Assembly (NCBI RefSeq): GCF_900112265.1
Contig: NZ_FOLO01000001.1
Location: 83,963-147,962 of the forward strand
Direction: 5' to 3'
From: Pseudoalteromonas denitrificans DSM 6059
GTDB lineage: Bacteria > Pseudomonadota > Gammaproteobacteria > Enterobacterales > Alteromonadaceae
DNA: 64,000 bases
In this document: positions 41,547 to 64,000 of the stretch, in pieces
How the letters are laid out: each line of letters starts with the position of its first letter
Position numbering within the stretch: position 1 is the stretch's first letter
Made by a program: the position numbers and the translations under genes
Notes under the pieces: generated by a model
Told to the model about the DNA's origin: nothing
The model's input: the letters and a program-made list of their open reading frames with translations, nothing else
Database searches by the model: none

Positions 41547-41798
41547 AAAATGAAGAAGTATCTCTGTATTATTTTAAGCTTTTTTTATAATTTACTCGCA
41601 GTTCTAACTCGCTCAATAAACTATTTTTATACCACCCCGTTTATAAGATAAGGAGCCTTCATAACGGTTTAAGTTATGCTGTAATTATAAAGATTTTCTT
41701 TATATTAAAATGACTTATTCTCATGTTTTTTATATTTTTAACTATACTTACAAGTCATCTTACTACAGTTGAATTTTTCGTTTGAGGAAAAGGGATTT

Positions 41799-47534: not shown

Positions 47535-49718
47535 TCAAGATTTGATTAATCGTCTTGTTCTAGCGATAAATAGTAAGCCGATTAACCAAAATATATTCAA
47601 ACTACCACTTGCGTTCTTTTTAACGGGAATAACTGGTACAGGTGTTGGGCCTGGTGATGCTGTATGTGTAGTGAGTAAAGCCATCATTTGGGTTTCATTG
47701 TCTAAATAGGCAATAAAATCTACGATGTTATCGGCATTGACATCTGCAGGAATAATTAAACTTGATGCTGAAATAAGCACTACTCCATCCTGACTAAATT
47801 CAGTTTCACCTGAACTTTGATAAGTTGTAGCGATGCCTTGTGCATCAGTCACTTGCATATCAGTTTTACCATCTCCATCAGTATCTAAAATTTTAATCGT
47901 TAAAGCATTTTCATTATGAAATAAAGTTATTGTATCTTGGCTATTAGCATATAGTTTTCCAGTAATTTTAGCGCCTAGTTCAAATATTATTGTATTATTA
48001 CCACCAGCTAAATCAATGGGCCCATTAATTTTGGCACTTGAAGAAATCGTAATTGTATCGTCTCCTTCGGAGCCTTTTATTGCAGTGCTGCCATTACCTT
48101 CAGTTAGAATAGTCCCGTTAATTAATAAAGTAGAGGCGGAATCAATAAGAATAGCGGTACTATCTCGCCCATGCATTTCTAATAAAGCATCAGTTTCAAG
48201 GGTGAAATTGACAGTATCTAAAATGATGCTTGAAAGATCATGACCATAAGAGGCCAGTGAAGGCACATTATGAGTGACAGGGGTACAAGTTTGGGCACCC
48301 ATGGCATTGGTGGTACATTGATTAAAGTCATATCCTCCTGTTGTTTTACCTGATGGTGTTATTGCAAAATTTGGCATAGATATATTGAGCGATGTTGTTC
48401 TTACATTTGCACCTGTACATTGTAACCCACTCGCATCAACATCATCGGAACAAGTACCATCGGCAAAAAAGGCTAAAGAGATTTGTCGATCTAAATTCCA
48501 AAGGTAGTTTACGGCGCTTTCATCATTTATAACCGGAGTTTGAGTGACATCAATAACATAATAAACATCAAGTAAAGGACTGTGAAATATAGAGCTCGTA
48601 TACCCAAAAATGGAACCCGAATGCCCCACCATAACAGAGCCATTTAATGCAGACTCAAAGTCATAAATAGCCAAACCATAATTAGCGGGCAAGCCACCAA
48701 CAGAACCTGGCACAGTATCATGTAATCGTTGCGCTTGTATTTCAGGTGTTAATAGGCCATTTTTATTACTTGCAAGTTGTCGGATCCATTGAATTTGATC
48801 TGGTATATTTGAGATAATAGCGCCGGCAGAATTAGGCACGTCAGGGCTAACATGAGTGAAATAAGTTTCATAGGTATTATTAATGCTGGGTGTTAGAGAA
48901 GATGAGCCTGTAATTGGTCCGCCATCGACAACGGTCACATATCCATCAGCGAATGGTCGATTAAACTCTGTATTTGTCGGAAATATAGTGTCATTTAGTC
49001 CCATTGTCATCATGATGCGAGATGTAATGACTTCGCCAATGGTCAGTGTGCACTCAGGTTGATCCATACAAGATATTTTACGTGCGATTTCACCTAATAA
49101 TACAAAATTACTATTGGAGTAACTCATGCCACTGGTTCTGTCCATGTTATTGGTTTGAGCTATTAATTGTTTTGCAGTTGCAGATGTAAGCCCATGTTCT
49201 ATTGCCCACTGATCTAATACTGTACGATCAGCGACACCATCAAGTGCGGGAGCAACGAGGTAATCAGGAATACCACTGGTCATTTGTAATAAATGTTTAA
49301 TGGTAACTTGGTTGGCATTGGGAACGCCAAAATCTGGTAACCAAAATTCTAAGGTATCATTGAGGCTTATTTTGCCTTCTTGCACCATTTGTAAAATAAC
49401 CGTACCAGTGAATGTTTTGGTTTCACTGCCGATCCTAACTTGATCATTTACCAACATAGTTGAAGTTGGACATGTCATTCCTGATGTATTAAAAAGTGGG
49501 TCACAGTTGGCAACACCTTGCCAAAGTATTTCGCTGTTTGTTACAACGGCAGCTGCAACTGCAGGTATGGTTGAGGCATCTTGTTCTACCTCTAAGCTCA
49601 CTTGACTGATCACTGAAATATCAGGTTGTCCAGATGCAAAAACCGTGGATGAAAAAGCTAACCAGCTTAATGTAGAAATAGATTTTTTTAGTATAGATTT
49701 ACTTTTTTTTTGTCGCAT
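47535..49718 (-). CDS. Secreted serine hydrolase of the beta-lactamase/PBP fold with C-terminal sorting signal
   Basis: A 727-aa protein. A signal peptide (about 1-29) precedes a class C beta-lactamase / D-Ala-D-Ala carboxypeptidase-type domain (about 35-420) with the catalytic SETK (S98, K101), YSN (Y200, N202) and HSG (H366). Residues about 430-680 are a Ser/Thr/Asn-rich beta-strand region resembling autotransporter-like repeats (SEGDDTITISSSAKI, AGGNNTIIFELGAKI), plus a DTDGDGKTD calcium-like motif. The tail PVKKNASGSLNIFWLIGLLFIARTRR resembles GlyGly-CTERM signals. AAGGA precedes the ATG. Being divergent from the NRPS gene, it may share control with the cluster and act on peptides or esters outside the cell, but this is inference. 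Confidence 0.8.
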   Translation of the reverse strand: MRQKKSKSILKKSISTLSWLAFSSTVFASGQPDISVISQVSLEVEQDASTIPAVAAAVVTNSEILWQGVANCDPLFNTSGMTCPTSTMLVNDQVRIGSETKTFTGTVILQMVQEGKISLNDTLEFWLPDFGVPNANQVTIKHLLQMTSGIPDYLVAPALDGVADRTVLDQWAIEHGLTSATAKQLIAQTNNMDRTSGMSYSNSNFVLLGEIARKISCMDQPECTLTIGEVITSRIMMTMGLNDTIFPTNTEFNRPFADGYVTVVDGGPITGSSSLTPSINNTYETYFTHVSPDVPNSAGAIISNIPDQIQWIRQLASNKNGLLTPEIQAQRLHDTVPGSVGGLPANYGLAIYDFESALNGSVMVGHSGSIFGYTSSIFHSPLLDVYYVIDVTQTPVINDESAVNYLWNLDRQISLAFFADGTCSDDVDASGLQCTGANVRTTSLNISMPNFAITPSGKTTGGYDFNQCTTNAMGAQTCTPVTHNVPSLASYGHDLSSIILDTVNFTLETDALLEMHGRDSTAILIDSASTLLINGTILTEGNGSTAIKGSEGDDTITISSSAKINGPIDLAGGNNTIIFELGAKITGKLYANSQDTITLFHNENALTIKILDTDGDGKTDMQVTDAQGIATTYQSSGETEFSQDGVVLISASSLIIPADVNADNIVDFIAYLDNETQMMALLTTHTASPGPTPVPVIPVKKNASGSLNIFWLIGLLFIARTRRLIKS

Positions 49719-49966: not shown

Positions 49967-52900
49967 GTGGTGACAAATCAGCAAATCAGCTCTGAACTTC
50001 ATAAAAAAAATATTGAAAATATATTGCCGTTAACGTCACTACAAACGGGCATGTTGTACCATGATTTAGTTGAACGAGAACAAGGTAAAAGTGGCAAGTC
50101 TTATAACCAGCAATTAAGCTTTAGGATCAGCGGACCACTGAATAAAATTGCTTTTGAATTGAGCTGGCAACAGTTAATAAATAGGCATGCAGCGCTTCGA
50201 ACTGTGTATAAACATGATAAAGCAGCAGAGCCTATGCAAATAGTCTTACGCAAACGAAATTTTACTCTCCATTATATCGATTTAAGTGCTTTAAATAATA
50301 TTCAACAACAAGAACAATTACATATAAATATTAAACAAGATCGTGCCTTAGGGTTTGATATTGAAAACGAATTATTGTTACGTCTGACTCTAGTTAAAAT
50401 AAGTCCAAAAGAACATTGGGTATTATGGTCCTTTCACCACATCGTACTTGATGGTTGGTGTATTACCCCTTTGCAGCAAGAGCTATTTTCTTTTTATGAA
50501 CATAATCTAAAAAATACACAAACGCATCTTTCTCCTGCACCCGCTTATAGTGACTATGTTGAATGGATCCGACGCCAAGATTTACATTTAGGATTCTGGC
50601 ATCAGCAACTTAAAGGTTTCTATGATGTAACTTCGCCACCCTTAGCCATTTTTCAACAAGCTGTCAATCAGAACAAAGATGAACAACCGGGGTATAGTAT
50701 TGTTACTGCGCGAGTTCAAGGTAAAACCTATCAAAAAATGCAAGCTTTAGGTCAGAAAACAGGTGCAACATTAAGTACGCTTATTCATGCTATTTGGGGA
50801 ATTTATCTTGGTAAAGTTAATGACTGTAACGATGTTGTTTTTGGTAGTGTTCAGTCAACGAGACCTATGGCGCGTGGTCAATTTGATAACCTTATAGGCT
50901 TGTGTATAAATACGATTCCATGTCGAATTAAATTTAATCAGACGTCTAACTTTTATCAAATAGCCAAACAAACTCAAGACGATTTTTTAGGTTATATAGA
51001 ACATGGCACTACTGGACTTAGTGATATTAAAGAGCAATGCTCTACCTCTAAGTCATTATTTGATCATTACATTGCATTTGAAAACTACCCTGCCATTGAC
51101 CAAGATTCTGAGGGTAGGGAAGTGCTCTCTAAAGATTTATACGCAGATCAAATGACGGCTTTTATGCCAACGTCTTATCATTTTCATTTGTCGGTATTTC
51201 CTGCTAAAGATGAACTTGAAATTGCATTTAAATATAAAGCTCACTATGTTGAAGCTGAAAATATTGAGTCGATTGCACAAAGTTTTATCCAGTTAGCTGA
51301 ATGTCTGGTAACTCAACCTGAATGTGCAGTCAATAACATTCCATTATTAAACGACAGACAACAATACATAATAAAACAGCATTCGCAAGGGGCTAAAAAA
51401 ATAGTAAATAGTAATAATGTGATTGAGTTGTATCAGAAGAATATTAACAAGATTAAGCATCAACAGGCCTTGGTTGATACACACTTTAGCTTAACCCATG
51501 AGCAATTGGATAATGCTTCAAATAGACTTGCGCAATCAATTGTAAGCTCTGGTTATGATGGTCCCGTTGCTCTATTAGGGTATGCATCAGCACAAATGGT
51601 AATTGCCATGTTTGCCTGTTTAAGGTTAGGCATCGCTTATATTCCCCTTGATCCAAGTAATCCTATAAAACGTACTCAGGCTATTTTAACAGCTGCAAAA
51701 GCAAAATTAGTGATAAGTAATATCAGTGAAAAAACAAGCGTAGATCATGTGTTATTTAATCATGATGGTTGCAGAGCAATTTATATTGATATGAATGAAT
51801 TGCAATCTTTAAAAGAGCCTAACTCTGACACTTTTGTTAATAAAGCTCAAATAGACTCAGACGCATATATTATTTTTACCTCAGGCTCTACTGGTGAACC
51901 TAAAGGGGTACCAGTAAAACAAAAAGCTTTGCTTAATTATATTTTGTGGAGTCAAGATAAGTTTTCATTAGATGCCGCTGATAGCAGTATTTTGCTCACA
52001 TCATTTTGCTTTGATCTTGGCTATACAGCTCTGTTTGGTAGCTTAATATGGGGCGGTACTTTACATATTGCTAATGAACAGCAACGTAGAGATCCTAATT
52101 GGCTGAATCATTATTTAGTAAAAAATCCTATTAGCTTCATAAAAATAACACCTTCATACTTACATATGTTGATAAAAACAGTGGGGGCTCAGCAATTATT
52201 TAACAATAGTAAACTGAAAAGTTTGATCTTAGGTGGTGAAGAGCTTGACTATGCTGACCTTGAAGCTTTACATCGATATCAACCTTTGTTGAATATTTAT
52301 AATCATTATGGTCCAAGTGAAAATACCATAGGTTGTAGTGCACATTTTTTGACTGACACTGACTTTATTAGGCAACAGCAAGTGATAGGTGAACCTGCTT
52401 TTAATGTGCAAAATTATGTCTGTGGTTCTGATATGGCACTATTGCCTGCATATGTTGAAGGTGATTTATATCTGGGTGGAGAGCAGTTAATCAACTCGTA
52501 TCTAGATAAAAAAAACAATTCAGGTCGACTGGTAACTTGCTTTGAAATAGATAATAAAAAACTTTATAAAAGTGGTGATAGGGCATATAGAGATCATAAG
52601 GGGTTATTGGTTTTTTCTGGCAGAGAGGAACAAAGTTGTAAAATTGACGGTTATAGAGTTGATTTAAAATCAATTCAACGAATTTTGATTGAACATGATC
52701 AAATTAAAGATGCTTTGGTAACACATTTTAAAGACAAAGATAATCTGAGCAAAATTATTGCTCTTTTAATCCCAGAAGCAAGCTACACAATCACATTAGA
52801 ATCTTTAAGGGACTGGCTGAGCAATCAATTACCTTCATATATGTTACCGTCTGAACATATCATGGTATCGCGCTTTCCTATTACAGCTAATGGTAAATTA

Positions 52901-53989
52901 GATCAGAAAAAACTTACCGAATTCTGGCAGCATAGCTTCCAATCTTCAGTCGATAATTCAGCGAATAAACCGATTAATCATACAGAATTTGTATTGCTTA
53001 AAATATGGCAGAAAATTTTATTTCGTGATCATATTAGCATTAATGACGATTTTTTTGCGCTTGGAGGTCATTCAATTAAAGCCATTCTATGCCTTGGTGA
53101 AATGCGAAAGCAATTGTCGATTGAGTTACCCATTCAGAGTATTTTTAATAACCCTACAATAAGCAAGTTGGCCAAACTTATTAATCAGAAACGGTATGAT
53201 ATGAGTGCCGATAATCAGCAACATGTTTTATTACCTCTAGATATCAGGCACAAAAAAGCACAGCAAGTCGTTTATTGTTTGCCACCAGCAATCGGTACAC
53301 CAACAATTTATAAAGAACTTTTTATGGCGTTAAACTTACCACTCAATGCATATGGTTTTCAATGTGGTGGTTTTATGTCTGAAGATTCAAACGCGCTGTC
53401 ACTTGAGACGCTAGCCGATATAGCTGCCGAGCAAATTAGCGAACATTATCAAGGCATAAAACAACAAAGTAATGCACTGATTATGGCCTATTCTTTTGGT
53501 GGAATATTAGCTTTGGAAGTTGGCAAAAGATTAGAAACAAAAGGCATTAAATTACCTATGGTTTTGATTGACGCCAGCTTGAGTCAAAATCAAGATGTGA
53601 CTCAGTACTCACTTACAGCCCTTAAAGAAAACAGTTATTGGCGAGGCGTAATTGGTATTTTGGAAGAGAGTTGTAGTGAAGCGCAGTTTGATAAAATTAC
53701 ACAGGGTGCTGTTAATAATCAGCAGCGTATGTTGCGTTATTTAAATACTCACGAACAAGATTTGAAATTGATCAACTCTCCTTTGGTTTGCATTGAAGCT
53801 AATGCAAACCTAGCGTCTGCAAGCATGATTGATTTTGCTAATAAAACGTCTCAAAAAATCTTAGTTTTGAAAACGCCTGGTGATCATTTTAGTATTTTTC
53901 AGCCACCTAACATCGAGATTTTATTGGAAAATTTAAGAGATACATTAAAAGACTTTTTAGAGGAAGCAAGTTTGGAGGTGCTTTCATGA
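49967..53989 (+). CDS. Single-module NRPS: condensation-adenylation-PCP-thioesterase
   Basis: A 1340-aa synthetase. The condensation domain (about 15-450) has intact HHxxxDG (H157-G163, HHIVLDG). The adenylation domain (about 460-960) has F637TSGSTGEPKG, HYGPSENT, a YKSGDRAYRDHKG segment and PITANGKLDQKKL. Aligned to GrsA, the specificity residues read D683 L684 T687 K726 I754 G756 H780 I788 G789 K, i.e. DLTKIGHIGK, one change from the aspartate code DLTKVGHIGK. The PCP has LGGHSIK (S1036) and a type I thioesterase (about 1080-1330) has AYSFGG (S1176) and GDHFSIF. There is no epimerase or methyltransferase. The TE implies the last module of an assembly line although the gene comes first. The start GTG 49967 follows GGAAG. 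Confidence 0.92.
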   Translation: MVTNQQISSELHKKNIENILPLTSLQTGMLYHDLVEREQGKSGKSYNQQLSFRISGPLNKIAFELSWQQLINRHAALRTVYKHDKAAEPMQIVLRKRNFTLHYIDLSALNNIQQQEQLHINIKQDRALGFDIENELLLRLTLVKISPKEHWVLWSFHHIVLDGWCITPLQQELFSFYEHNLKNTQTHLSPAPAYSDYVEWIRRQDLHLGFWHQQLKGFYDVTSPPLAIFQQAVNQNKDEQPGYSIVTARVQGKTYQKMQALGQKTGATLSTLIHAIWGIYLGKVNDCNDVVFGSVQSTRPMARGQFDNLIGLCINTIPCRIKFNQTSNFYQIAKQTQDDFLGYIEHGTTGLSDIKEQCSTSKSLFDHYIAFENYPAIDQDSEGREVLSKDLYADQMTAFMPTSYHFHLSVFPAKDELEIAFKYKAHYVEAENIESIAQSFIQLAECLVTQPECAVNNIPLLNDRQQYIIKQHSQGAKKIVNSNNVIELYQKNINKIKHQQALVDTHFSLTHEQLDNASNRLAQSIVSSGYDGPVALLGYASAQMVIAMFACLRLGIAYIPLDPSNPIKRTQAILTAAKAKLVISNISEKTSVDHVLFNHDGCRAIYIDMNELQSLKEPNSDTFVNKAQIDSDAYIIFTSGSTGEPKGVPVKQKALLNYILWSQDKFSLDAADSSILLTSFCFDLGYTALFGSLIWGGTLHIANEQQRRDPNWLNHYLVKNPISFIKITPSYLHMLIKTVGAQQLFNNSKLKSLILGGEELDYADLEALHRYQPLLNIYNHYGPSENTIGCSAHFLTDTDFIRQQQVIGEPAFNVQNYVCGSDMALLPAYVEGDLYLGGEQLINSYLDKKNNSGRLVTCFEIDNKKLYKSGDRAYRDHKGLLVFSGREEQSCKIDGYRVDLKSIQRILIEHDQIKDALVTHFKDKDNLSKIIALLIPEASYTITLESLRDWLSNQLPSYMLPSEHIMVSRFPITANGKLDQKKLTEFWQHSFQSSVDNSANKPINHTEFVLLKIWQKILFRDHISINDDFFALGGHSIKAILCLGEMRKQLSIELPIQSIFNNPTISKLAKLINQKRYDMSADNQQHVLLPLDIRHKKAQQVVYCLPPAIGTPTIYKELFMALNLPLNAYGFQCGGFMSEDSNALSLETLADIAAEQISEHYQGIKQQSNALIMAYSFGGILALEVGKRLETKGIKLPMVLIDASLSQNQDVTQYSLTALKENSYWRGVIGILEESCSEAQFDKITQGAVNNQQRMLRYLNTHEQDLKLINSPLVCIEANANLASASMIDFANKTSQKILVLKTPGDHFSIFQPPNIEILLENLRDTLKDFLEEASLEVLS

Positions 53990-54222
53990 AAAAATAAGAA
54001 AGCTGTAATAAAAAATCGTCAGCAAACTGTTTTACTGTAATCAGGTAGTTTCGCTGTTCTTTATAAATTTATTGTTATTACCCAAGTTATCTCGAGATGA
54101 ACTTAATTGCGCTCTTTATATGATTTGGATGATAGGCCAAGTTGATTTATGTCTCCCTTAGTGGAAATAACTTTATTAATTTGGAATTACGCTCATTTTG
54201 ATGAAATTAAAAGGAACCGATC
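53990..54222 (+). other. Spacer between NRPS and accessory genes
   Basis: 233 bases with no gene and no clear terminator. It probably holds a secondary promoter for the downstream accessory genes. Confidence 0.3.
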
Positions 54223-54861
54223 ATGACTAAAGTAACAACAGATAGCGAAGCTACAAAAAAAGAAACACAAAAAAAAGCACCCACAAAAAAAGAGGCTGCT
54301 AAAAAGACCGCAGAACCAGTTAATGAGACACAAACTGAAGCGCAAACCCCGATTGCGATAGATAAGGCCATTCCTCAGGCAATTATTGAAAAGTATAGCA
54401 AATGGTCATTCGGAGCGGGTCTTATCCCTGTGCCAGCAATTGATTTGGTTGCACTTACAGCTATTCAATTAAAGATGGTTGCTGAAATAGCAGAAGCTTA
54501 CGGTGAATCATTTAGTGAAAACCGTGTTAAGTCGGTTGTAACAGCGTTACTAGGGGGTGCCATACCTCAAACATTAACAACTGGCGGGATCAGCTCAACA
54601 CTTAAGGCGATTCCAATATTTGGCTCTGTCGTTGGTATGGCAACTATGCCTTTAATATCAGCTGCTGCAACTTATGCCATAGGTGCGACTTTCATTAATC
54701 ACTTTGAAAGCGGCGGAACCTTACTTGATATCAACCTCTCAGATATGAAAGAAAGCGTTAAAGAAAACATTAAAAAGTATAAAAATAAGAATAAAAAACT
54801 AGTTGAAGAAGCTAAAAATGAAGTAACGGAAGAAGAAAAAGCGGCTACTGAAGACGCTTAA
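54223..54861 (+). CDS. DUF697-type membrane-associated protein
   Basis: A 212-aa protein with a Lys/Ala/Thr-rich N-terminal 45 residues, then a DUF697-like domain (about 50-170): SFGAGLIPVPAIDLVALTAIQLKMVAEIAEAYG, amphipathic and hydrophobic helices with several GG/GA pairs (LLGGAIPQTLTTGG, GSVVGMATMPLISAAATYAIG), and an acidic/Lys C-terminal coil. DUF697 domains accompany some GTPases and stress proteins; no GTPase is fused here. AAGGA precedes the ATG. Its place between the NRPS and the exporter suggests a membrane role in producing or tolerating the product; the function is not known. Confidence 0.7.
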   Translation: MTKVTTDSEATKKETQKKAPTKKEAAKKTAEPVNETQTEAQTPIAIDKAIPQAIIEKYSKWSFGAGLIPVPAIDLVALTAIQLKMVAEIAEAYGESFSENRVKSVVTALLGGAIPQTLTTGGISSTLKAIPIFGSVVGMATMPLISAAATYAIGATFINHFESGGTLLDINLSDMKESVKENIKKYKNKNKKLVEEAKNEVTEEEKAATEDA

Positions 54862-54883
54862 TATCCTGTTTAGGTATTAACTT

Positions 54884-54918
54884 AAACCGGTAGTACTTTT
54901 AATTTCTGCCGGTTTTCA
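54884..54918 (+). terminator. Terminator-like hairpin after the DUF697 gene
   Basis: AAACCGGTAG (54884-54893) / CTGCCGGTTT (54906-54915), 10-bp stem with one G-T pair and a 12-base loop, followed by a short T stretch. It may partly separate the next genes. Confidence 0.5.
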
Positions 54919-54945
54919 TTGTTATTTAATTAACAGGAACTTTTG

Positions 54946-55158
54946 ATGACGATAATAATTGTTTTTTTCTATATCGCGCTATGTTTTTATGCAGGTTTCG
55001 CTGGGAGAAATAGCACTATAGGGCCTATAGGATATTTTCTTTTAGCTTTTTTACTGAGTCCTGTTTTGGTGCTAATTTTTTTAGTTATTTGCCAAATAGG
55101 ATCAACTAAAAATTGCAGCCGTAACTTAGAGCAGAACAATCGTACCATTGACAATTAA
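54946..55158 (+). CDS. Small membrane protein of the lipopeptide cluster
   Basis: A 70-aa protein with two membrane segments (about 2-20, TIIIVFFYIALCFYAGFAG, and 28-50, GYFLLAFLLSPVLVLIFLV) and a polar Asn-rich tail. ATG 54946 has AGGA at a good distance. It is 27 bases before the exporter gene. The family is not recognised; a similar two-segment pattern occurs at 13747-13956. Confidence 0.65.
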   Translation: MTIIIVFFYIALCFYAGFAGRNSTIGPIGYFLLAFLLSPVLVLIFLVICQIGSTKNCSRNLEQNNRTIDN

Positions 55159-55185
55159 ACTACTATTTATTGAGTTACCCCGTAC

Positions 55186-56844
55186 ATGAATGTTTTTGAA
55201 CTTGTAAACCGGGAATTGAGAATCGATAAGAAGAAATTCTTTACGCTTGCTTGTATTTCCGGCTTAGCTAATGCCGCCGTATTAGCTGTTATTAATACTT
55301 CTGCTCAACATGTCTCTGATAAAGAAGACACTTTATATTATCTGGCTATTTTTGTAGTCATAGTGGCTATTTATGTGGTTGCACAAAAGCAGCTCATGTT
55401 TGCTGCAACGGCCCATGTTGAACAAGCTATCAACAATTTACGATTAAAATTGGTTGAAGATATTAGGCGAAGTGAGCTCAGTACAATAGAAAAAATAGGT
55501 AAAGAAGAAATCTATACTATTATCAGCAAAGAATTACAGACTATGTCACAGGCATCTACTTTATTTGTGATTGTTGGCCAGGCCAGTGTTCTGATATTCT
55601 TTACCATGATTTATATTGCTTGGCTATCTTTGGCTGCATTTATTCTCACAATCTTTTTTGTTTCCATTGGGGCTGGTTTGCATTTATTACGCTCTCGTGA
55701 AGTGAGGGGCTACCTTAAAAAATCTTTTGATAAAGAAAACCAGTTGGTTACGCGTTTGTCAGATTTACTCGATGGCTTCAAAGAAGTGAAGCTAAGTAGT
55801 AAAAGAGCCGATGATCTTGAGAAACAAATATTTAAACTATCAGATGAAGTTGCTGAAACTAAAATAAAAACGCAAAGCATTTATTCAAGTGACTTTGTAA
55901 TGTCACAATCAACATTTTTTGTATTGACGGGATCTATGGTTTTCTTTGTTCCTATTTTATCCTCTGTTTATCCTGATGTTGTTATGAAAGTGACTACTAC
56001 CTCGCTATTTTTAATTGGTCCTATTTCAAATATTGTCAGTGGGATTCCGATATTTGCTAATGCAAATGCAGCTATTCGTAATGTGATTGAATTGGAGGAA
56101 AAGCTTAAGTCTAATATTCCATGCCACCAAGAAGAAGCGGCAGATCAACTGCCGCAAAATTTTGCGACAATTACTTTAAGCAAATTGCATTTCACCCATG
56201 CCGACAACGGTAATGGAGGTGATAAATCATTTGCTGTAGGTCCAATTGATTTTACTATTAAGAAAGGGCAAACAATTTTTATTACTGGTGGAAATGGGAG
56301 CGGAAAAACAAGTTTTATCCGATTATTAACAGGTTTATATCCTGCTGATGGCGGCACAATTAATGTTGACCGCAGGCCAGTAAATAATAATAACCTGGAA
56401 AGTTACCGTAATTTGTTTTCTGCGGTCTTTTCTGACTTTCATTTGTTTCAGCATTTTTATGGTATGGGAGAAGTTGATTTTGAAGAAGCAAATTCTTGGC
56501 TGAATTACTTGGAAATGTCGCATAAAGTGAGCATTAAAAATCAAGGTTTTAGTACGACAAGGCTTTCGACTGGACAACGTAAGCGATTGGCTTTATTGGC
56601 TACAGCATTAGAAAGTAGGCCTATTTGTATTTTTGATGAGTGGGCTGCGGATCAAGACCCTGGTTTTAGAGACAAGTTTTATACCGAAATTTTACCCAGA
56701 TTGAAAGCGCGAGGCCAAACTATAATCGCTATTACTCATGATGATAAATACTTTCATCTTGCTGATACACATATGAAAATGGTAGATGGCATGTTATTAC
56801 CTTCAAACGGTATCAGTAAGGAGGTAATTACTCATGCAGGTTAA
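55186..56844 (+). CDS. Cyclic-peptide/siderophore-type ABC exporter (fused membrane and ATPase domains)
   Basis: A 552-aa half-transporter of the SyrD/PvdE class that exports NRPS products across the inner membrane. Six membrane segments occupy about 15-300. The ATPase follows, with Walker A GGNGSGKTS (about 367-375), signature LSTGQRKRL and Walker B ICIFDEWAADQDP; the family-typical DEWAADQDP is exact. The last codons overlap the SPFH gene by 11 bases, so the two are coupled. Its presence is direct support that the cluster makes an exported, probably cyclic, peptide. Confidence 0.92.
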   Translation: MNVFELVNRELRIDKKKFFTLACISGLANAAVLAVINTSAQHVSDKEDTLYYLAIFVVIVAIYVVAQKQLMFAATAHVEQAINNLRLKLVEDIRRSELSTIEKIGKEEIYTIISKELQTMSQASTLFVIVGQASVLIFFTMIYIAWLSLAAFILTIFFVSIGAGLHLLRSREVRGYLKKSFDKENQLVTRLSDLLDGFKEVKLSSKRADDLEKQIFKLSDEVAETKIKTQSIYSSDFVMSQSTFFVLTGSMVFFVPILSSVYPDVVMKVTTTSLFLIGPISNIVSGIPIFANANAAIRNVIELEEKLKSNIPCHQEEAADQLPQNFATITLSKLHFTHADNGNGGDKSFAVGPIDFTIKKGQTIFITGGNGSGKTSFIRLLTGLYPADGGTINVDRRPVNNNNLESYRNLFSAVFSDFHLFQHFYGMGEVDFEEANSWLNYLEMSHKVSIKNQGFSTTRLSTGQRKRLALLATALESRPICIFDEWAADQDPGFRDKFYTEILPRLKARGQTIIAITHDDKYFHLADTHMKMVDGMLLPSNGISKEVITHAG

Positions 56845-58003
56845 TCTTATGCCAGGGCTTGTGCCCTTAATTGTTTTAATTTTGGGTCTTATCATCAGTT
56901 TAATTTATTACTGGGTACGACGTTATCCTGAGCGTTATGCCATAACGCGTTTTTTACATAGAAATAAAGCGCAACTTTTATTGAGTACTTTGTGTTTTAT
57001 CTTACTTGGATTAGTGTTAATTCCTGTGATTTTTATTCCCGTACCATATGGTCATTCAGCTGTGATTTGGGCTAGGTTTCAAGGCGGTACCTTGATGAAT
57101 GTTCATCTTGATGAAGGGACTTTACTGGTCATGCCTTGGGACAGAGTATATATCTATTCCACGCAATATAAGGTGTTGGAACATGAATTTGAAGCGGCTA
57201 CGAAAAATGGGTTATCGATACGGATCAATACAGTTATCCGTTATCGCGTAAAGGAAAGTACCTTATCGCATTTACATGTCAATGTGGGTGAAGATTATGT
57301 TAATCGTTTGCTATTACCTGAAATTGGCTCTCGGGCACGTATAGAAATAGCCAAACATACTGCTGAGGAAGTGTATGCAACACAACGCCTAGATGTGCAA
57401 AATAAAATATCAAAATCCCTCCAAGGAGATGTAGGTTTATCCGGTCAGTCAACATGTATGAATAAGAACAAAAATGTCGATGTTAATTGTAAATCCTCTG
57501 ATTATATTGAGCTGCAAGAATTTTTGATTCGAGAGATAGTGCTACCTGAAGGGATCCATGAAGCAATCGTCAGAAAAATAGAAAAAACGTATCTCAGAGA
57601 TGAATATGAAACTCGAATAGAGATAGCGACTAAAGAAGCCGATCGTAAACTTGAAGAAGCTAGGGGGATCGCTGGATTTCAAGAAATTGTTAAAAAAGGT
57701 ATTTCGGAAACTTACCTACGTTGGCGAGGCATTGAAGCAACATTAGATTTAGCGAAATCAAATAATGCCAAAGTTGTGGTTATTGGTGGTGGTCGTGATG
57801 GATTGCCTATTATTCTAAATACTGAAAGCACTCACTCTGTGCAAAATGATAATTCTAATTTAGAAAAAGCACTTAATGACAAAACAAAAATACAAAACGC
57901 AGTTCAAGTCGTTAAAGGTGTAACGAGTAAAGTTAAAGGTGATGATCAGCAAGTCAAAAAAGATGTCAAAGCTGACGATGAAAGGGTGATCCAGTTTAAC
58001 TAG
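56834..58003 (+). CDS. SPFH/band-7 (prohibitin-like) membrane protein of the lipopeptide cluster
   Basis: A 389-aa protein with two N-terminal membrane segments (about 8-28 and 47-70), then an SPFH domain (about 70-270: IPVPYGHSAVIWARFQGG, IRINTVIRYRV, LLLPEIGSRARIEIAKHTAEEV). After it come a charged helix (RIEIATKEADRKLEEARGIAGFQE) and a Lys/Asp-rich tail. AAGGAGG eight bases upstream fixes ATG 56834, inside the exporter gene. SPFH proteins form membrane microdomain scaffolds. Strict coupling to an exporter is unusual and suggests a role in assembling the export machine or protecting the membrane from the lipopeptide. Confidence 0.88.
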   Translation: MQVNLMPGLVPLIVLILGLIISLIYYWVRRYPERYAITRFLHRNKAQLLLSTLCFILLGLVLIPVIFIPVPYGHSAVIWARFQGGTLMNVHLDEGTLLVMPWDRVYIYSTQYKVLEHEFEAATKNGLSIRINTVIRYRVKESTLSHLHVNVGEDYVNRLLLPEIGSRARIEIAKHTAEEVYATQRLDVQNKISKSLQGDVGLSGQSTCMNKNKNVDVNCKSSDYIELQEFLIREIVLPEGIHEAIVRKIEKTYLRDEYETRIEIATKEADRKLEEARGIAGFQEIVKKGISETYLRWRGIEATLDLAKSNNAKVVVIGGGRDGLPIILNTESTHSVQNDNSNLEKALNDKTKIQNAVQVVKGVTSKVKGDDQQVKKDVKADDERVIQFN

Positions 58004-58087
58004 CACTCTGCATGCAAAGTAACCTGTAAGTGAAATTAATAATATAGAAGATGTTGAATAACAATAAATAATAAAAAGGACGCTTAG

Positions 58088-61000
58088 ATGATGAAATATG
58101 CTGATATGACGGGTGCCAAAAATCTGATGGCTGCTTTGTCGAACCATCAAGATTCAAATAAGGATATTGAATTTATATTATCTGCCAAAGAGAGTCAGGT
58201 CACAGATTATCGTTTATTTTATTGTCATGTTTTAGCTGTCCACCAGCAATTATTGAATGCAGGCCTACAAGCAGGTGATGAACTTGTATTAGTTACCGAT
58301 GATGTTGCTTTTTTTACTGTCTTATTTTGGGCGGCACTGAGTGCTGGTATTACGCCTGTTCCTCTGGCCTTTCCTAATAGTGATTCAGCAGCTGAGAAAT
58401 TACAGTCTGTGTGGGGGCAATTAGCCTCGCCTTGGCTTACATCTGATAAACCATTAGATGATGTTTTGGCGCGTTATGTTCCTGATTTTAGTCGTACTAT
58501 TGCTAGTCGCATTATTCATAATATTGATTTGCACAAAACAGATCATAGTAATGAACTTGATATATATGATGCGGATCCTGATGATATTGCATTTATTCAA
58601 TTCAGCTCAGGTTCAACAGGTTCACCCAAAGGTGTGGTTGTAACTCATAAAATGTTACTGGCTGATTGTGCTGGAATTGTTGCAGCTAATAATATTGACA
58701 ATGCTGATAGATTTTTCAGTTGGCTGCCATTAAGTCATGACTTTGGCATCATCTATTATATGATTTTACCTGTCATTTATGGTCTGCCCTTTTGCTTGAT
58801 GTCGACTAAGCTATTTGCCAGACATCCAGTATTATGGCTGGATAAAATGAATCAAACTCGGGCTACGGCTACAGGCGCACCTAATTACGCTTTTGAACAT
58901 GTGATGAAGATGTTTAAACCTGAAGCTGGAAAAAATTGGGATCTGAGTTGTTTAAAGGTCGTCCTTAATGGTGCTGAGCCAATTGATTTAGCGATTTGCC
59001 AGCGATTTAATGCCTGCTTTGGTAAATATGGTTTATCACCCACAGCACTAACGCCTGCTTATGGTTTAGCTGAAGGCACTTTAGTGGTGACAACGATCCC
59101 TTTAGATGAAGAAGTCATAGGTTATAGTTTTGATCGCAATCAATTAAAAGTAGGTGATTTTGTTAAAGAAGACCCTCAAGGCAGTTACTTTGCAGATAAT
59201 GGGTTTCCGCTCAATTGTGTTGATGTCAGGATCAGTGATGATACGTGTCAAGAATTTGATAATAATCGAGTCGGTTCTATTCAAATTCGCGGTGAGAGTG
59301 TAACACATGGTTACTACCGTGATCCCGATCGCATTAAACAAAGCTTAACCAGTGATGGTTGGCTTGAAACGGGAGACTTAGGTTTTTTACGCAAGGGAAG
59401 ATTAATTGTTACTGGGCGCAGTAAAGATCTCATCATAGTCAACGGTGTTAATTATTACCCTCAAGATATCGAAAATATTTGTACGTTATTACCCTCCTTA
59501 GGTTTAAACAAAGTTGTTGCTTGTTCTGTTTCTTCACAAGGGAGTGAAAAATTTGCACTATTCTTATTATTTCGTCAATCATCAGCGCAATTTCTTCCAT
59601 TAATTAAGGATGTTGAAGAATTACTGATCCGTGAATTAGGAATTAAACCCGACTATTGTTTACCTATTAAAAAAATTCCTAAAACGACAAGCGGTAAGCT
59701 AAGACGTTTTGACTTGGTTCGTCAATTTAATGATGGCCAATTTAATAATGTGATAAAACAGCTTCATGAGGAAAAACAGCAGTCAGATTATCATCCCCTT
59801 AAACGCGCATTATTAAATGGTGATCAGTATGCAACACTTGATGCCTTATTAAATTTGGTATTACCTTTATCTCATCAGCAAGAATTGCCTATAGATATCC
59901 CGCTAATGGAACTCGGTTTTAAGTCTGTGCATATTACAGAGGTGATGTTTAGGATTAATGATGTAATGCAACGAGATTGGCCTATAAGCTTTTTATTTGA
60001 TTTTTCGACATTAAATGAAATGGCAGAAGGTTTAATTTTCTTAGTTGCAGAAGAGTTAAAGCAAGATCCAAAGCAAACTATCACAAATAGTAAAATGCAT
60101 GATGCAATACAAAAAAACATTGGCATTATTGGTATTGGTTGTCAATTTCCAGGTAATGCTGATGGGGTGGATGCATTTTGGCAGTTGTTAAATCAACAAA
60201 CTGAATTGGTTAATGAAGCACCACCTCAGCGTTGGCAAATTAATGCGAAAAACCTTAACTCTTATCCTGGGCTGAATAAAGGTTATTTCATTAATGATCC
60301 TTGGTTATTTGATCATCGCTTTTTTAATATTTCACCCCTTGAAGCACAAGCAATGGATCCTCAACAAAGACGGTTATTAGAGTGTAGTTGGCAAGCTTTT
60401 GAAGATGCAGGTATAGATCCTAAGCAATGGAAAAACAAAAAAGTGGGTGTTTTCTTAGGGCTTAGTAATATAGATTACGACAAAATTAATCCTCGAAGTC
60501 CAAACCCTGATGACCTTAATGGTTATGCTATAACGGGCAGTGCTGCAAGCATAGCTGCTGGACGCATTGCTTATTTTTATGGTTTTAATGGGCCGGTTAT
60601 GACCATAGATACCGCATGTTCATCGTCATTAGTTGCAGTTCATCATGCCATAGGGGCATTACAGAGAGGTGAGTGTGAATTGGCTTTAGTAGGTGGCACT
60701 AACTTAATGTTGGATGAGGCAACAACGGCTGCTTTAGTGAGTATGAAAGCGTTATCACCTACGGGCCAAAGTAAGGCCTTTTCTCAAGATGCAGATGGTT
60801 ATGGTCGAGGGGAAGGGTGTGCTGTTGTTGTATTAAAACGTTTGCAAGATGCGCAAAATAACAATGATAAAGTTTGGGCACTCATTAAGGGGAGCGCGAT
60901 TAATCATGATGGTGCCAGTAATGGATTAACTGCTCCAAGCAGTCAAGCACAGCAAGCTTTATTACATGACGCTTTAGAAAATGCAGACTGTAAGCCACAA

Positions 61001-64000
61001 GAAATAGATTTTATTGAAACCCATGGAACTGGCACTCCTCTGGGCGATCCAATTGAAGTGAACGCATTAAATAAAGTTTATCAAAAACGCGAAATACCTT
61101 TAATGTTAGGCTCAGTTAAATCGAATATTGGTCACCTTGAAGCCGCAGCTGGAATCGCTGGTTTAGTTAAATCTGCACTCGCATTACATTACAGGTTATT
61201 GCCTGCCAGTTTACATGCAAAAGAATTAAATAATCATATTGATTGGCAATCAATGGCGCTTAGAGTTGCGACAAGTCATCAAATGCTTAATGCTGATATA
61301 TGTCATGGTGGAGTGAGTGCTTTTGGTTTGAGCGGTACAAATAGTCATGTCATTTTAAGTTCTTATAAAAAACCGATTAAAGATGAAGATATTTTAAAAA
61401 CTGACTCTGTTGATAAACAATATTTAACACTCAGTGCTCAAGATCCTGAAGCATTTAATATGCTTGTTGATAACTGGCAACATGTGATCAATGAACAAAA
61501 TGAAACTCAGTTAATAAACCTTTGCATTGGAGCTTCAACTCAGCGTACTCATTTATGCTATCGCAAGCGATTGAAAGCTAATAATAAACTTGAATTACAG
61601 GCACAGCTGGAAAAAGCGAAAAATGCACGATTAAAAGCATGTAATACAGATAACCGTGTAGTTTTTGTTTTTCCTGGTCAGGGAAGTCAGTACCCCGAAA
61701 TGGCGGCTGAGTTGTATCAAAAAGAGACTTATTTTAGGCAAACCATAGAGCATATGGCTCACATACTTGATCCTGTATTACCCTATGGTTTGGTACAATT
61801 ATTAACATCAGATCAAGATGAAGCAGTACTCGGTAATACTGAAATTACCCAGCCATTATTAGTTGCTTTTGAAGTGGCTTTAGCTAAGTTATGGCAATAT
61901 TGGGGTGTAGAGCCTACCGCGTGTATTGGTCATTCTATTGGTGAATTAGCTGCTGCTGTTATAAGTGAAAGTTTAAGCGTTGAAGCAGGTCTATTACTTG
62001 CTGCAGAGCGAGGGCGAATACTTGCATCTTTACCTAAAGGTGGTGCTATGGCTGCTGTAATGAGTGACGTGGAAACCGTTCAGCTACATATAGATAAGTT
62101 CAGTGATGGTAAGGTTTTAGCGATTGCAGCCCATAATGATCCAAATAATGTCACTTTATCTGGTAGTGAAAGCCAGTTGTTATTATGTCTTGAAAAGCTG
62201 ACTGAATCAGGAATTAAAACTCGTCGTTTATCGGTATCACATGCTTTTCATAGCCCTTTTATGGCTGCGGCTGAAAGTGACTTTTCCATTGCTTTAAATA
62301 AAGTGCAATTTAAATCACCTAAATATCATATTTTATCGACTGTAACAGGTGAAAGACTTACTTCTGAACAATGGAAAAATCCTAACTATTGGATTGATCA
62401 ATTAACGCACCCAGTATTATTTCATGAGGCTGTGATGGCACTTAAGGCTGATAACCGTTATCAATGTATTGAAATATCTGCCAGACCAAGCTTGATCAGC
62501 TGTGGGCGACGTTGTCAGCCTGAGGCTAATTGGATAGGCAGCTTATCATTACAGGAGCCACTAAATACGCTTAATGACAGCATGAGTCTTTTATATGAAG
62601 CTGGTATTGATTTTAATTGGCAACATTATTACCCACAAAATGCTATTTCTCGTTTATCTTTACCAAACTATCCATTTCAACCTCATAGTCATAAGCCAAA
62701 AAATCTGAATATACAGATGCAAGAATCTAAAGTATCAGAGCCTCAAAATCATGTTCAAACAATGAAGCTTCACTCGGATAATAATCGGTTAGCCAATCAA
62801 GTGTATGATCTAATAAGCAGTATTAGTGGCTTACCTGTTGAGCGGCTTGATGGAGATGCAAATTGGTTTTCGTTGGGATTAGACTCTTTAGTTATAGTGC
62901 AAATTCAGCAGGCAATCGTTAAGCGTTTTGCGATTGATATTCCTTATACCATGTTGATGGCTGAACTGGATACTGTGAATAAGTTACTGGCAAGATTAAT
63001 ACAGGAGATACCTGAAGTTGTAGAGGAAGTTACTCCTGAGGTTGCTAATAACATAGCGAATGTGAATACCTCTAATGAAAATACTAACAATGAATTAAAT
63101 ACTTTGTTTGAACAGCAAATTCAGGCTATGTCAAGCCTGTTTGAAAAGCAATTGAGCATTTTGCCTAACTCACACGTGAGTATGAATACGTCAACTAATC
63201 GTGTAGACAAACAAGAAGTCAAATTAAGCAAAGCAATCGTTAAGCCAGGTAAAGAAATTAAAGGCTTATTTCAATCAATTAAAACAGAAAAAGGGGCTGA
63301 ACTCAATCTTGTGCAACAGCAGCATTTGACCTTATTAACACAGGAATATACACATCAAACAGCCGCATCAAAACAGTATGTGGCTAAACATCGCAAGCAT
63401 TATGCAAATAGTCGTAGCATTATAGGTTTTAAACCTGAAACGAAAGAGTTGGCTTATCCAATTCATGTGAATAAAGCTAAAGGGGTTCAGTTATGGGATC
63501 TTGATGGTAATCAATATATTGATATTACAATGGGTTTTGGTTCTATTTTATTTGGCCATAATCCTGATTTTATTCGTGATGCTATTGCTGCTGAGCTGGA
63601 TCGGGGAGCGGCAGTAGGGCCACAATCATTATTGCCTGCCAGAGTAGCACAAAAATTATGTGCTATGACGCGAACTGATAGAGCTGCTTTTTTTACGACA
63701 GGTACTGAAGCTATCATGGTCGCTGTCAGAATTGCCAGAACAGTCACTGTTCGCAAAAAAATAGTCATATTTCAAGGGGCCTTTCACGGTAGTTTTGACA
63801 GTGTACTCGCCTCTGGTTGGGTAGAAGCTGATGGACCCGTTACTGTACCGCTGACGGATGGTACAACTCAGGGCATGATTGACGATACGATTGTTTTGAA
63901 ATATGGCGAACCAGACTCTCTTGAAATTATTAAGCAATATGCAGATGAAATCGCAGCGGTATTAATTGAGCCGGTGCAAAGTAGAGATCCTGCATTGCAA
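58088..64000 (+). CDS. Hybrid PKS-NRPS loading synthase: FAAL-ACP-KS-AT-ACP-aminotransferase (3' end beyond window)
   Basis: At least 1971 codons open to the window end; AAGGA sits seven bases before ATG 58088. Domains in order: fatty acyl-AMP ligase (about 10-590; F172SSGSTGSPKG, SWLPLSHDFG); ACP1 (S613 in LGFKSVHI); ketosynthase (about 677-1100; C844 in DTACSSS, H979 in ETHGTGT, H1016 in NIGHLEAAAG); acyltransferase (about 1195-1490; S1283 in GHSIGE, HAFH at 1385-1388, the malonyl-CoA type); ACP2 (S1600 in LGLDSL); an unstructured linker; and a class III aminotransferase (about 1770 on: DITMGFGSILFGHNP, FTTGTEAIMVAVRIAR, GAFHGSF). No ketoreductase is present, so the beta-ketone remains for transamination. 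The order mirrors MycA/ItuA of mycosubtilin/iturin, except that the AT is built in. Adenylation/condensation modules are expected downstream. Confidence 0.93.
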   Translation, partial: MMKYADMTGAKNLMAALSNHQDSNKDIEFILSAKESQVTDYRLFYCHVLAVHQQLLNAGLQAGDELVLVTDDVAFFTVLFWAALSAGITPVPLAFPNSDSAAEKLQSVWGQLASPWLTSDKPLDDVLARYVPDFSRTIASRIIHNIDLHKTDHSNELDIYDADPDDIAFIQFSSGSTGSPKGVVVTHKMLLADCAGIVAANNIDNADRFFSWLPLSHDFGIIYYMILPVIYGLPFCLMSTKLFARHPVLWLDKMNQTRATATGAPNYAFEHVMKMFKPEAGKNWDLSCLKVVLNGAEPIDLAICQRFNACFGKYGLSPTALTPAYGLAEGTLVVTTIPLDEEVIGYSFDRNQLKVGDFVKEDPQGSYFADNGFPLNCVDVRISDDTCQEFDNNRVGSIQIRGESVTHGYYRDPDRIKQSLTSDGWLETGDLGFLRKGRLIVTGRSKDLIIVNGVNYYPQDIENICTLLPSLGLNKVVACSVSSQGSEKFALFLLFRQSSAQFLPLIKDVEELLIRELGIKPDYCLPIKKIPKTTSGKLRRFDLVRQFNDGQFNNVIKQLHEEKQQSDYHPLKRALLNGDQYATLDALLNLVLPLSHQQELPIDIPLMELGFKSVHITEVMFRINDVMQRDWPISFLFDFSTLNEMAEGLIFLVAEELKQDPKQTITNSKMHDAIQKNIGIIGIGCQFPGNADGVDAFWQLLNQQTELVNEAPPQRWQINAKNLNSYPGLNKGYFINDPWLFDHRFFNISPLEAQAMDPQQRRLLECSWQAFEDAGIDPKQWKNKKVGVFLGLSNIDYDKINPRSPNPDDLNGYAITGSAASIAAGRIAYFYGFNGPVMTIDTACSSSLVAVHHAIGALQRGECELALVGGTNLMLDEATTAALVSMKALSPTGQSKAFSQDADGYGRGEGCAVVVLKRLQDAQNNNDKVWALIKGSAINHDGASNGLTAPSSQAQQALLHDALENADCKPQEIDFIETHGTGTPLGDPIEVNALNKVYQKREIPLMLGSVKSNIGHLEAAAGIAGLVKSALALHYRLLPASLHAKELNNHIDWQSMALRVATSHQMLNADICHGGVSAFGLSGTNSHVILSSYKKPIKDEDILKTDSVDKQYLTLSAQDPEAFNMLVDNWQHVINEQNETQLINLCIGASTQRTHLCYRKRLKANNKLELQAQLEKAKNARLKACNTDNRVVFVFPGQGSQYPEMAAELYQKETYFRQTIEHMAHILDPVLPYGLVQLLTSDQDEAVLGNTEITQPLLVAFEVALAKLWQYWGVEPTACIGHSIGELAAAVISESLSVEAGLLLAAERGRILASLPKGGAMAAVMSDVETVQLHIDKFSDGKVLAIAAHNDPNNVTLSGSESQLLLCLEKLTESGIKTRRLSVSHAFHSPFMAAAESDFSIALNKVQFKSPKYHILSTVTGERLTSEQWKNPNYWIDQLTHPVLFHEAVMALKADNRYQCIEISARPSLISCGRRCQPEANWIGSLSLQEPLNTLNDSMSLLYEAGIDFNWQHYYPQNAISRLSLPNYPFQPHSHKPKNLNIQMQESKVSEPQNHVQTMKLHSDNNRLANQVYDLISSISGLPVERLDGDANWFSLGLDSLVIVQIQQAIVKRFAIDIPYTMLMAELDTVNKLLARLIQEIPEVVEEVTPEVANNIANVNTSNENTNNELNTLFEQQIQAMSSLFEKQLSILPNSHVSMNTSTNRVDKQEVKLSKAIVKPGKEIKGLFQSIKTEKGAELNLVQQQHLTLLTQEYTHQTAASKQYVAKHRKHYANSRSIIGFKPETKELAYPIHVNKAKGVQLWDLDGNQYIDITMGFGSILFGHNPDFIRDAIAAELDRGAAVGPQSLLPARVAQKLCAMTRTDRAAFFTTGTEAIMVAVRIARTVTVRKKIVIFQGAFHGSFDSVLASGWVEADGPVTVPLTDGTTQGMIDDTIVLKYGEPDSLEIIKQYADEIAAVLIEPVQSRDPALQ

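Follow-up and report, generated by a model that had tools for sequence, protein, structure and literature searches.

Layout of the locus

The window analysed here is a stretch of 64000 bases from Pseudoalteromonas denitrificans DSM 6059, corresponding to bases 83963-147962 of a 364,194-base contig in a genome of 6.09 Mb assembled in 130 contigs. Coordinates called extended continue the window numbering past 64000. Nine genes lie on one strand between 49967 and 83976, with intergenic gaps of -20 to 324 bases, and the synthetase frames are uninterrupted over this entire distance. These genes, together with the divergent hydrolase gene that precedes them, are as follows.

47535-49718, minus strand: S12 (beta-lactamase fold) serine hydrolase, 727 aa (Pfam Beta-lactamase, 121.7 bits)
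49967-53989, plus strand: terminal module C-A-PCP-TE with A code DLTKIGHIGK (Pfam; TE motif AYSFGG at 53486)
54223-54861, plus strand: DUF697 protein, first gene of the export cassette (Pfam DUF697, 45.1 bits)
55186-56844, plus strand: ABC exporter of the cyclic peptide type (TIGR01194, 367.4 bits)
56834-58003, plus strand: Band 7/SPFH membrane protein, third gene of the export cassette (Pfam Band_7, 73.5 bits)
58088-72448 (extended; in the window to 64000), plus strand: hybrid synthase, 4786 aa, FAAL-ACP-KS-AT-ACP-AMT-C1-PCP-C2-C3-A1-PCP-C4 (Pfam)
72429-74342 (extended; start probably 72450), plus strand: AsnB-type amidotransferase (TIGR01536)
74396-81829 (extended), plus strand: A2-PCP-C5-A3(MT)-PCP-E, 2477 aa
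81861-82823 (extended), plus strand: TauD oxygenase
82876-83976 (extended), plus strand: DUF481 protein

The initial annotation covered the interval 49967-64000. Its domains are sustained, including a C-A-PCP-TE protein at 49967-53989 for which Pfam gives the same order, while the DUF697 and Band-7 genes on either side of the transporter had gone unmentioned. Reading past 64000, as had been proposed at that stage, recovered the remaining modules of the synthase, whose gene ends at 72448. The cluster's terminal module (49967) sits upstream of the first synthase gene (58088), so collinearity across genes is an assumption in what follows.

The G+C content of the cluster genes (0.34-0.39) is close to that of the flanks (0.35), and the composition thus carries no sign of recent import. 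Promoter-like sites number 33, below a shuffle mean of 46.0, and terminator-like sites number 15, above a mean of 6.3. Upstream of the cluster are a SpoU methylase, a SATase-like protein and the Isc/Hsc iron-sulfur genes, followed by a hybrid histidine kinase (41769-46838) with six CHASE3 stretches, two receiver stretches and an Hpt domain. Lying immediately upstream, this kinase is a possible regulator of the cluster. Farther away, at 26976-33020, a 2014-aa protein with Ig- and cadherin-like repeats is probably a surface protein.

A probable beta-amino fatty-acyl start

The first part of the hybrid synthase resolves into the following domains.

58118-59752, plus strand: FAAL (AMP-binding, 173.6 bits; PRK09192 fatty acyl-AMP ligase, 346.8 bits, below the curated cut-off of 600)
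60104-61387, plus strand: KS, DTACSS at 60608 (Pfam and motif)
61643-62587, plus strand: AT, GHSIG at 61928 and HAFH at 62240 (Pfam and motif)
62768-63022, plus strand: ACP2, LGLDS at 62873 (Pfam and motif)
63338-64000, plus strand: N-terminal half of the AMT (Pfam Aminotran_3; PLP lysine codon at extended 64148)

Together with a short ACP between FAAL and KS (22.4 bits against a cut-off of 20.8), this is the order FAAL-ACP-KS-AT-ACP-AMT that had been read from the open reading frame. The AT is encoded in cis: it occupies residues 1192-1475, after KS and ahead of ACP2, and its HAFH motif is presumably that of a malonyl-specific enzyme. Loss of the AMT lysine downstream had been named as a finding that would overturn the reading; the lysine is intact at residue 2021, immediately past the window end, in a column invariant in all 11 aligned AMT domains. 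Carrier serine motifs (LGFKS, LGLDS, LGGNS and IGGHS) are present in the cluster. Pfam matched no KR in the synthase, and the beta-ketone should therefore reach the AMT.

From this arrangement, FAAL would load a fatty acid onto ACP1, KS and the cis malonyl-AT would extend the chain by two carbons on ACP2, and the AMT would transaminate the beta-ketone. The amino donor would probably be Gln, as described for the AMT of MycA in the part of that report available (PMC3870968). The chain would then be handed to the NRPS by C1-PCP, a pair with no A domain: the stretch of about 100 aa from C1 to the PCP has no AMP-binding match. With FAAL, one malonyl extension, no KR matched, AMT, peptide extension and TE all in place, the beta-amino fatty-acyl logic first proposed for this synthase start is well supported.

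The AT in cis had also been put forward as a distinguishing trait. This had to be abandoned as a novelty, since in 65 of 90 AMT sources the frame that holds the AMT also encodes an AT ahead of it (15 have one in another frame only, none was found in 9 and 1 was unscorable).

Peptide modules and predicted residues

Four A codes were read, in the order DFWNIGMVHK (A1), DVRHLALLAK (A2), DAATIAAVCK (A3) and DLTKIGHIGK (terminal module), with the last K assumed. The procedure was checked on iturin-type loci of Bacillus, where it returned DLTKIGEVGK and DALSVGEVVK, which we take to be Asn and Tyr. On the same footing we assume Thr for A1, a residue of the Phe/Tyr kind for A3 and Asp for the terminal A domain. 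The A2 code is of the D-x-R-H type, with R at code position 239 and H at 278. Among 221 A domains, such codes occur elsewhere in Microcystis (L089, DPRHSGVVGK), a Nitrospirae locus (DARHLALLIK), L054 (DARHLSLMVK) and G020 (DARHFSFMIK); the Microcystis code presumably stands for the Glu that is iso-linked in microcystin. Inserted in A3 is a methyltransferase domain; by sequence, the solved structures closest to it are arginine methyltransferases (CARM1, E 1e-12, about 120 residues aligned), and a search with it found no relative in 80 AMT loci and 10 further stretches.

In a tree of 218 C and E domains, C1 falls in a 13-row group (0.85) of C domains that follow an AMT, at least seven of the ten rows listed coming from Pseudoalteromonas AMT clusters. 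For C4 the group has 23 rows (0.96), and the ten listed are without exception from flavipulchrin-type clusters (see below). C5 belongs to a six-row group (0.88) with the C domains following the Microcystis L089 and Nitrospirae D-x-R-H A domains; some members of this group, from L067, a second Nitrospirae module and Thiomargarita, come after A domains with other codes, and with preceding codes so mixed, side-chain linkage can only be hypothesised from it. C6 (0.97) and E (0.89) fall with Nitrospirae rows, and the neighbours of the terminal module's C domain include several that come after an E domain. Serratia loci L102, L104 and L120 share a FAAL-KS-AT-AMT-C protein of about 2612 aa, the C domain of which goes weakly with C1 (0.63).

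On these readings Thr would be added first, by the module with A1. The second residue would be acidic and probably joined via its side-chain carboxyl, the third would be aromatic, methylated by the inserted methyltransferase and then epimerised, and the fourth would be Asp. Ring closure by the TE may come next, and the beta-amino group, which serves this purpose in flavipulchrins, is the probable site. As a point against these readings, no Asp/Glu racemase was found among the cluster genes scanned; three PF01177 proteins are encoded elsewhere in the genome, among which MurI was not separable.

Several features might indicate a decayed synthetase that makes no product. C3 has few motif matches (four of six patterns, without the second and fifth; C2 also matches four of six), the first His of the HH motif is substituted in C1 and E, the TE motif AYSFGG has A in place of the first G of GxSxG, and there is a C-PCP pair without an A domain. 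The substitutions in C1, E and TE do count against a working assembly line. Against decay, the frames are open from 49967 to 83976 and all nucleophile and carrier motifs sought were found. C3 keeps its HHxxxD, and the loose patterns that missed C3 also missed motifs in C1 and C4. The A-less pair is found in iturin-type loci of Bacillus too: AMT-C-PCP without A is present in 6 of 90 sources (Bacillus L058, L059, L063 and L068, Paenibacillus L088 and Thiomargarita L043). Decay is thus very improbable.

Flavipulchrin-type clusters in the genus

Initially, no comparable compound was thought to have been described from Alteromonadales. This was mistaken: flavipulchrins are macrolactams of Pseudoalteromonas whose 3-amino fatty acid is made via PKS, aminotransferase and NRPS, according to the parts of the report covered (PMC12819058). 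The residues given there for flavipulchrin A are Gly-Asp-OHAsn-Asn-Thr-Leu-Arg, with an E domain after Leu, and its configuration did not follow the domain types, so that predictions of this kind can fail (PMC12819058). In flavipulchrin A the C12 3-amino fatty acyl fragment has m/z 156.17, and a method of marker-free editing exists for P. flavipulchra (PMC12819058). What stands of the claimed novelty is the particular synthetase and its predicted product; as worded, the claim was too wide.

Searching 108 Pseudoalteromonas genomes with thresholds of E 1e-60 or better for AMT and E 1e-25 for Band 7, we found an AMT match in 43. In the 42 carriers other than P. denitrificans, the AMT lies in an open frame of 3325-3433 aa and is 45-48% identical to that of the window. 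Two of these clusters (G018 and G267) were read through, with codes DILQ.G.IWK, DLTKVGH.GK, DATKVGEVGK, DATKVGEVGK, DFWNIGMVHK, DAWFLGNVVK (then E) and DVESTGAISK. The first six we take as Gly-Asp-Asn-Asn-Thr-Leu. This order agrees with published flavipulchrin for six of seven residues, the seventh being published as Arg (PMC12819058, in the part covered), and an E domain follows Leu, on which basis both are called flavipulchrin-type. The 42 carriers are accordingly of the flavipulchrin type, two as read and 40 by their frame length, AMT similarity and Band-7 spacing, and the window's cluster is the odd one of the 43. The published account of the Pfl cluster of P. flavipulchra, in the part available, begins with a 'Cs' domain where our reading of G018 and G267 gives FAAL (PMC12819058). 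Alterins, considered for their mass as a product of this type, were rejected, since Dab and OH-Dab, but no beta-amino acid, are among their constituents in the portion of the source covered (PMC7764243). Pseudoalteropeptide A is mentioned in a review, likewise seen in part (PMC10458718).

A mosaic ancestry

Given these relatives in the genus, the window might simply hold a diverged flavipulchrin cluster, of the same class and ancestry with fewer modules. The accessory proteins speak for this, with identities to G018 and G267 of 56-57% for TauD, 53-55% for ABC, 50-52% for DUF697 and 42-46% for Band 7, as do the groupings of C1 (0.85) and C4 (0.96) with the Pseudoalteromonas AMT or flavipulchrin-type rows listed. 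The core speaks otherwise. A quick tree of 90 AMT domains gives the flavipulchrin-type clade a support of 100 and leaves the window's AMT outside it, in a group (support 91) shared with Thiomargarita L043, Methylococcaceae L044 and Nitrospirae L046; in that tree no set with a support of 95 or more includes the window's AMT, and its end branch is long (0.74). The residue codes differ from those of G018 and G267, the C/E tree puts C5, C6 and E near domains of the Nitrospirae locus, and the window's cluster has an AsnB where none was matched in those two clusters. Simple divergence from a flavipulchrin cluster is therefore improbable.

For the second NRPS gene and some of the accessory genes, no relative found was nearer than the Nitrospirae locus (L046/L139/L146, contig JADFYB010000003.1 of a MAG). 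Since its core, its second NRPS gene and its accessory genes each have nearest relatives of their own, the cluster is a mosaic: its AMT lies near Thiomargarita and Methylococcaceae, two of its modules near the Nitrospirae locus, and its tailoring and export genes near flavipulchrin-type clusters. A further PKS-AMT-NRPS locus (L090) comes from a MAG record labelled Bordetella parapertussis, a label that looks doubtful.

The putative export cassette and its linkage to the AMT

The transporter at 55186-56844 scores 367.4 bits with TIGR01194, above the cut-off of 286.2, in keeping with its first assignment as a SyrD/PvdE-type exporter; with PRK10522 it scores 352.5, below the cut-off of 604. Downstream of their last NRPS gene, the G018 and G267 clusters carry in succession TauD, an S12-type protein, DUF697, ABC and Band 7. 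The window holds the same gene set rearranged, with DUF697-ABC-Band 7 between the TE module and the FAAL gene.

At the thresholds used, Band 7 is found in 43 of the 108 Pseudoalteromonas genomes, the same 43 that carry the AMT, and in none of the 65 non-carriers (Fisher's test, 4e-31, with related genomes not being independent). Both genes are on one contig and strand, 31.4-33.4 kb apart, in all 42 other carriers. A stop interrupts the Band-7 match in three genomes (G371, G326 and G337), and in G341 an additional match lies on a different contig. Across the class, a Band 7 of this kind occurs in 4 of 369 genomes, that of the window included. In one of these, a gammaproteobacterium of another family (L153, G720), a single gene, for a 538-aa protein, separates Band 7 from a FAAL-KS-AT protein; G507 has a nearby protein with weak FAAL similarity, and G531 has no other match to the window domains within 20 kb. 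In another genus of the family, DUF697-ABC-Band 7 (34-39%) lies directly before a FAAL-PKS-NRPS cluster (G020:C17; L158, L033, L034 and L159), a long cluster in which an AMT, a D-x-R-H A domain and, as read by eye, a probable Asp/Glu racemase are present. In the 80 AMT loci a Band-7 match was found in L097 alone and no DUF697 or ABC match, which says little, as these loci reach at most 10 kb to either side and the cassette is 31 kb away in the flavipulchrin type. The parts of the flavipulchrin paper covered make no mention of an export cassette (PMC12819058), and in a literature search on SPFH or DUF697 proteins beside NRPS genes, 'spfh' and 'duf697' were absent among the papers listed.

Linkage and hydrophobic segments together suggest that the DUF697-ABC-Band-7 cassette may export the product and protect the cell, with Band 7 either assisting the exporter in the membrane or conferring immunity. 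The Band-7/AMT linkage is testable at once, and concerns a Band 7 without an assigned role.

Tailoring and accessory enzymes

The AsnB-type protein scores 458.4 bits with TIGR01536 (curated cut-off 267.1) and has the N-terminal Cys in MCGIAG at extended 72450. Such a score for an asparagine synthase would fit a role in general metabolism, supplying Asn or Glu and leaving the peptide untouched, as would a Thiomargarita relative (48%) that lies on a separate contig, away from its synthase. Two points argue for a role on the peptide. None of the four A codes, with the meanings we assume for them, reads Asn; and AsnB is found in 2 of 80 AMT loci with flanks of up to 10 kb (L044 and L046), which are two of the three loci whose AMTs are closest to that of the window. 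Amidation of an acidic residue by the AsnB-type enzyme is thus favoured over supply, not strongly, for want of an Asn-reading module, and the supply role keeps a probability only a little short of even. Our literature search gave no paper that names a pairing of AsnB with beta-amino lipopeptide clusters.

TauD is 56-57% identical to its flavipulchrin-type counterparts in G018 and G267, and from this similarity it is probably a beta-hydroxylase that would act on carrier-bound Asp or Asn. The role of the flavipulchrin enzyme is itself a proposal in the part of that report covered (PMC12819058). A beta-hydroxy-Asp also invites a quite different product, a linear or siderophore-like lipopeptide with PvdE-type export, for which TauD, the Asp-type A domain and the fair PRK10522 score can all be cited. 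Such a product is improbable: there is one Asp-type module only, a terminal TE is present, and no TonB receptor or other siderophore gene was found among the genes scanned.

The S12 hydrolase is probably secreted, judging by eye from its sequence. It is weakly similar to S12-type proteins within flavipulchrin-type clusters (24%, E 2e-10, and 23%, E 2e-7) and has 29% identity (E 5e-26) to that of the Nitrospirae locus. Divergent from the cluster, it is a possible accessory, maturation or self-protection enzyme.

Overall account

Taken together, we consider it likely, at roughly 75%, that the locus encodes a mosaic FAAL-PKS-NRPS hybrid for the synthesis and export of a small cyclic lipopeptide whose ring is closed on a beta-amino fatty acid. 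Ring closure via the beta-amino group is probable by analogy with the flavipulchrins. A more detailed picture, in which the ring has five units, the acidic residue is side-chain-linked with its alpha-carboxyl amidated by the AsnB-type enzyme, and the cassette is a three-part export or immunity device, is doubtful as a whole. If it were true, an iso-Asn or iso-Gln unit would be set by a dedicated amidotransferase, and a device of ABC, Band-7/SPFH and DUF697 proteins would be specific to beta-amino lipopeptides. Pseudoalteromonas would, on the main account, possess a second beta-amino lipopeptide line with a core that has other nearest relatives.

Comparison with known systems

The flavipulchrins, as far as the published parts covered go, share with the window's cluster the genus, a fatty acid extended by one malonyl, the aminotransferase, NRPS, TE and TauD. 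The flavipulchrin-type clusters G018 and G267 add the cis-AT FAAL/PKS/AMT start, the DUF697-ABC-Band-7 cassette and the S12-type protein. However, the published compounds have seven residues where the window has four A domains, and the Gly-Asp-Asn-Asn-Thr-Leu-Arg modules are absent here. The AMT of the flavipulchrin type belongs to another clade in the quick tree, and neither an AsnB nor an A-less C-PCP was matched in the G018 and G267 clusters.

The Nitrospirae locus has a KS-AT-ACP-AMT protein, AsnB, an S12-type protein, DUF481 (21%), DUF697 (37%) and an A(DARHLALLIK)-PCP-C-A-PCP-E protein. It differs in having five A domains rather than four, and no FAAL, TE, inserted methyltransferase, ABC or Band 7 was matched in the stretch read. 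From their first residues, by eye, we assume that it also encodes a probable Asp/Glu racemase and hydroxymalonyl-type supply genes. The microcystin-type iso-acid module (Microcystis L089, DPRHSGVVGK) resembles A2 in the D-x-R-H start of its code, and its next C domain groups with C5, whereas the other code positions differ and the window's cluster has AsnB and no racemase.

Puwainaphycins of Cylindrospermum are likewise cyclic beta-amino lipopeptides made with FAAL and a PKS that carries an aminotransferase. As given in the parts of the report covered, they differ in that FAAL and ACP are encoded in separate frames and in that a further PKS module and a monooxygenase domain introduce 2-hydroxy and 4-methyl groups (PMC4219810). 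The iturin and mycosubtilin synthases (ItuA, MycA) come closer, with the order FAAL-ACP-KS-ACP-AMT-C-PCP-C-A-PCP-C on one protein. The resemblance exceeds that seen in the initial annotation, since an A-less C-PCP follows the AMT in both. Unlike the window's synthase, the iturin type takes its malonyl transferase from a separate protein (FenF/ItuD) instead of an AT in cis, has no extra C domain where the window has the tandem C2-C3, and makes a heptapeptide that begins Asn-Tyr with seven A domains, as opposed to four of which the first is Thr (DFWNIGMVHK). The AMT logic is thus already known, and what is new in the window's cluster is the mosaic, the A2/AsnB pair and the linkage of the cassette.
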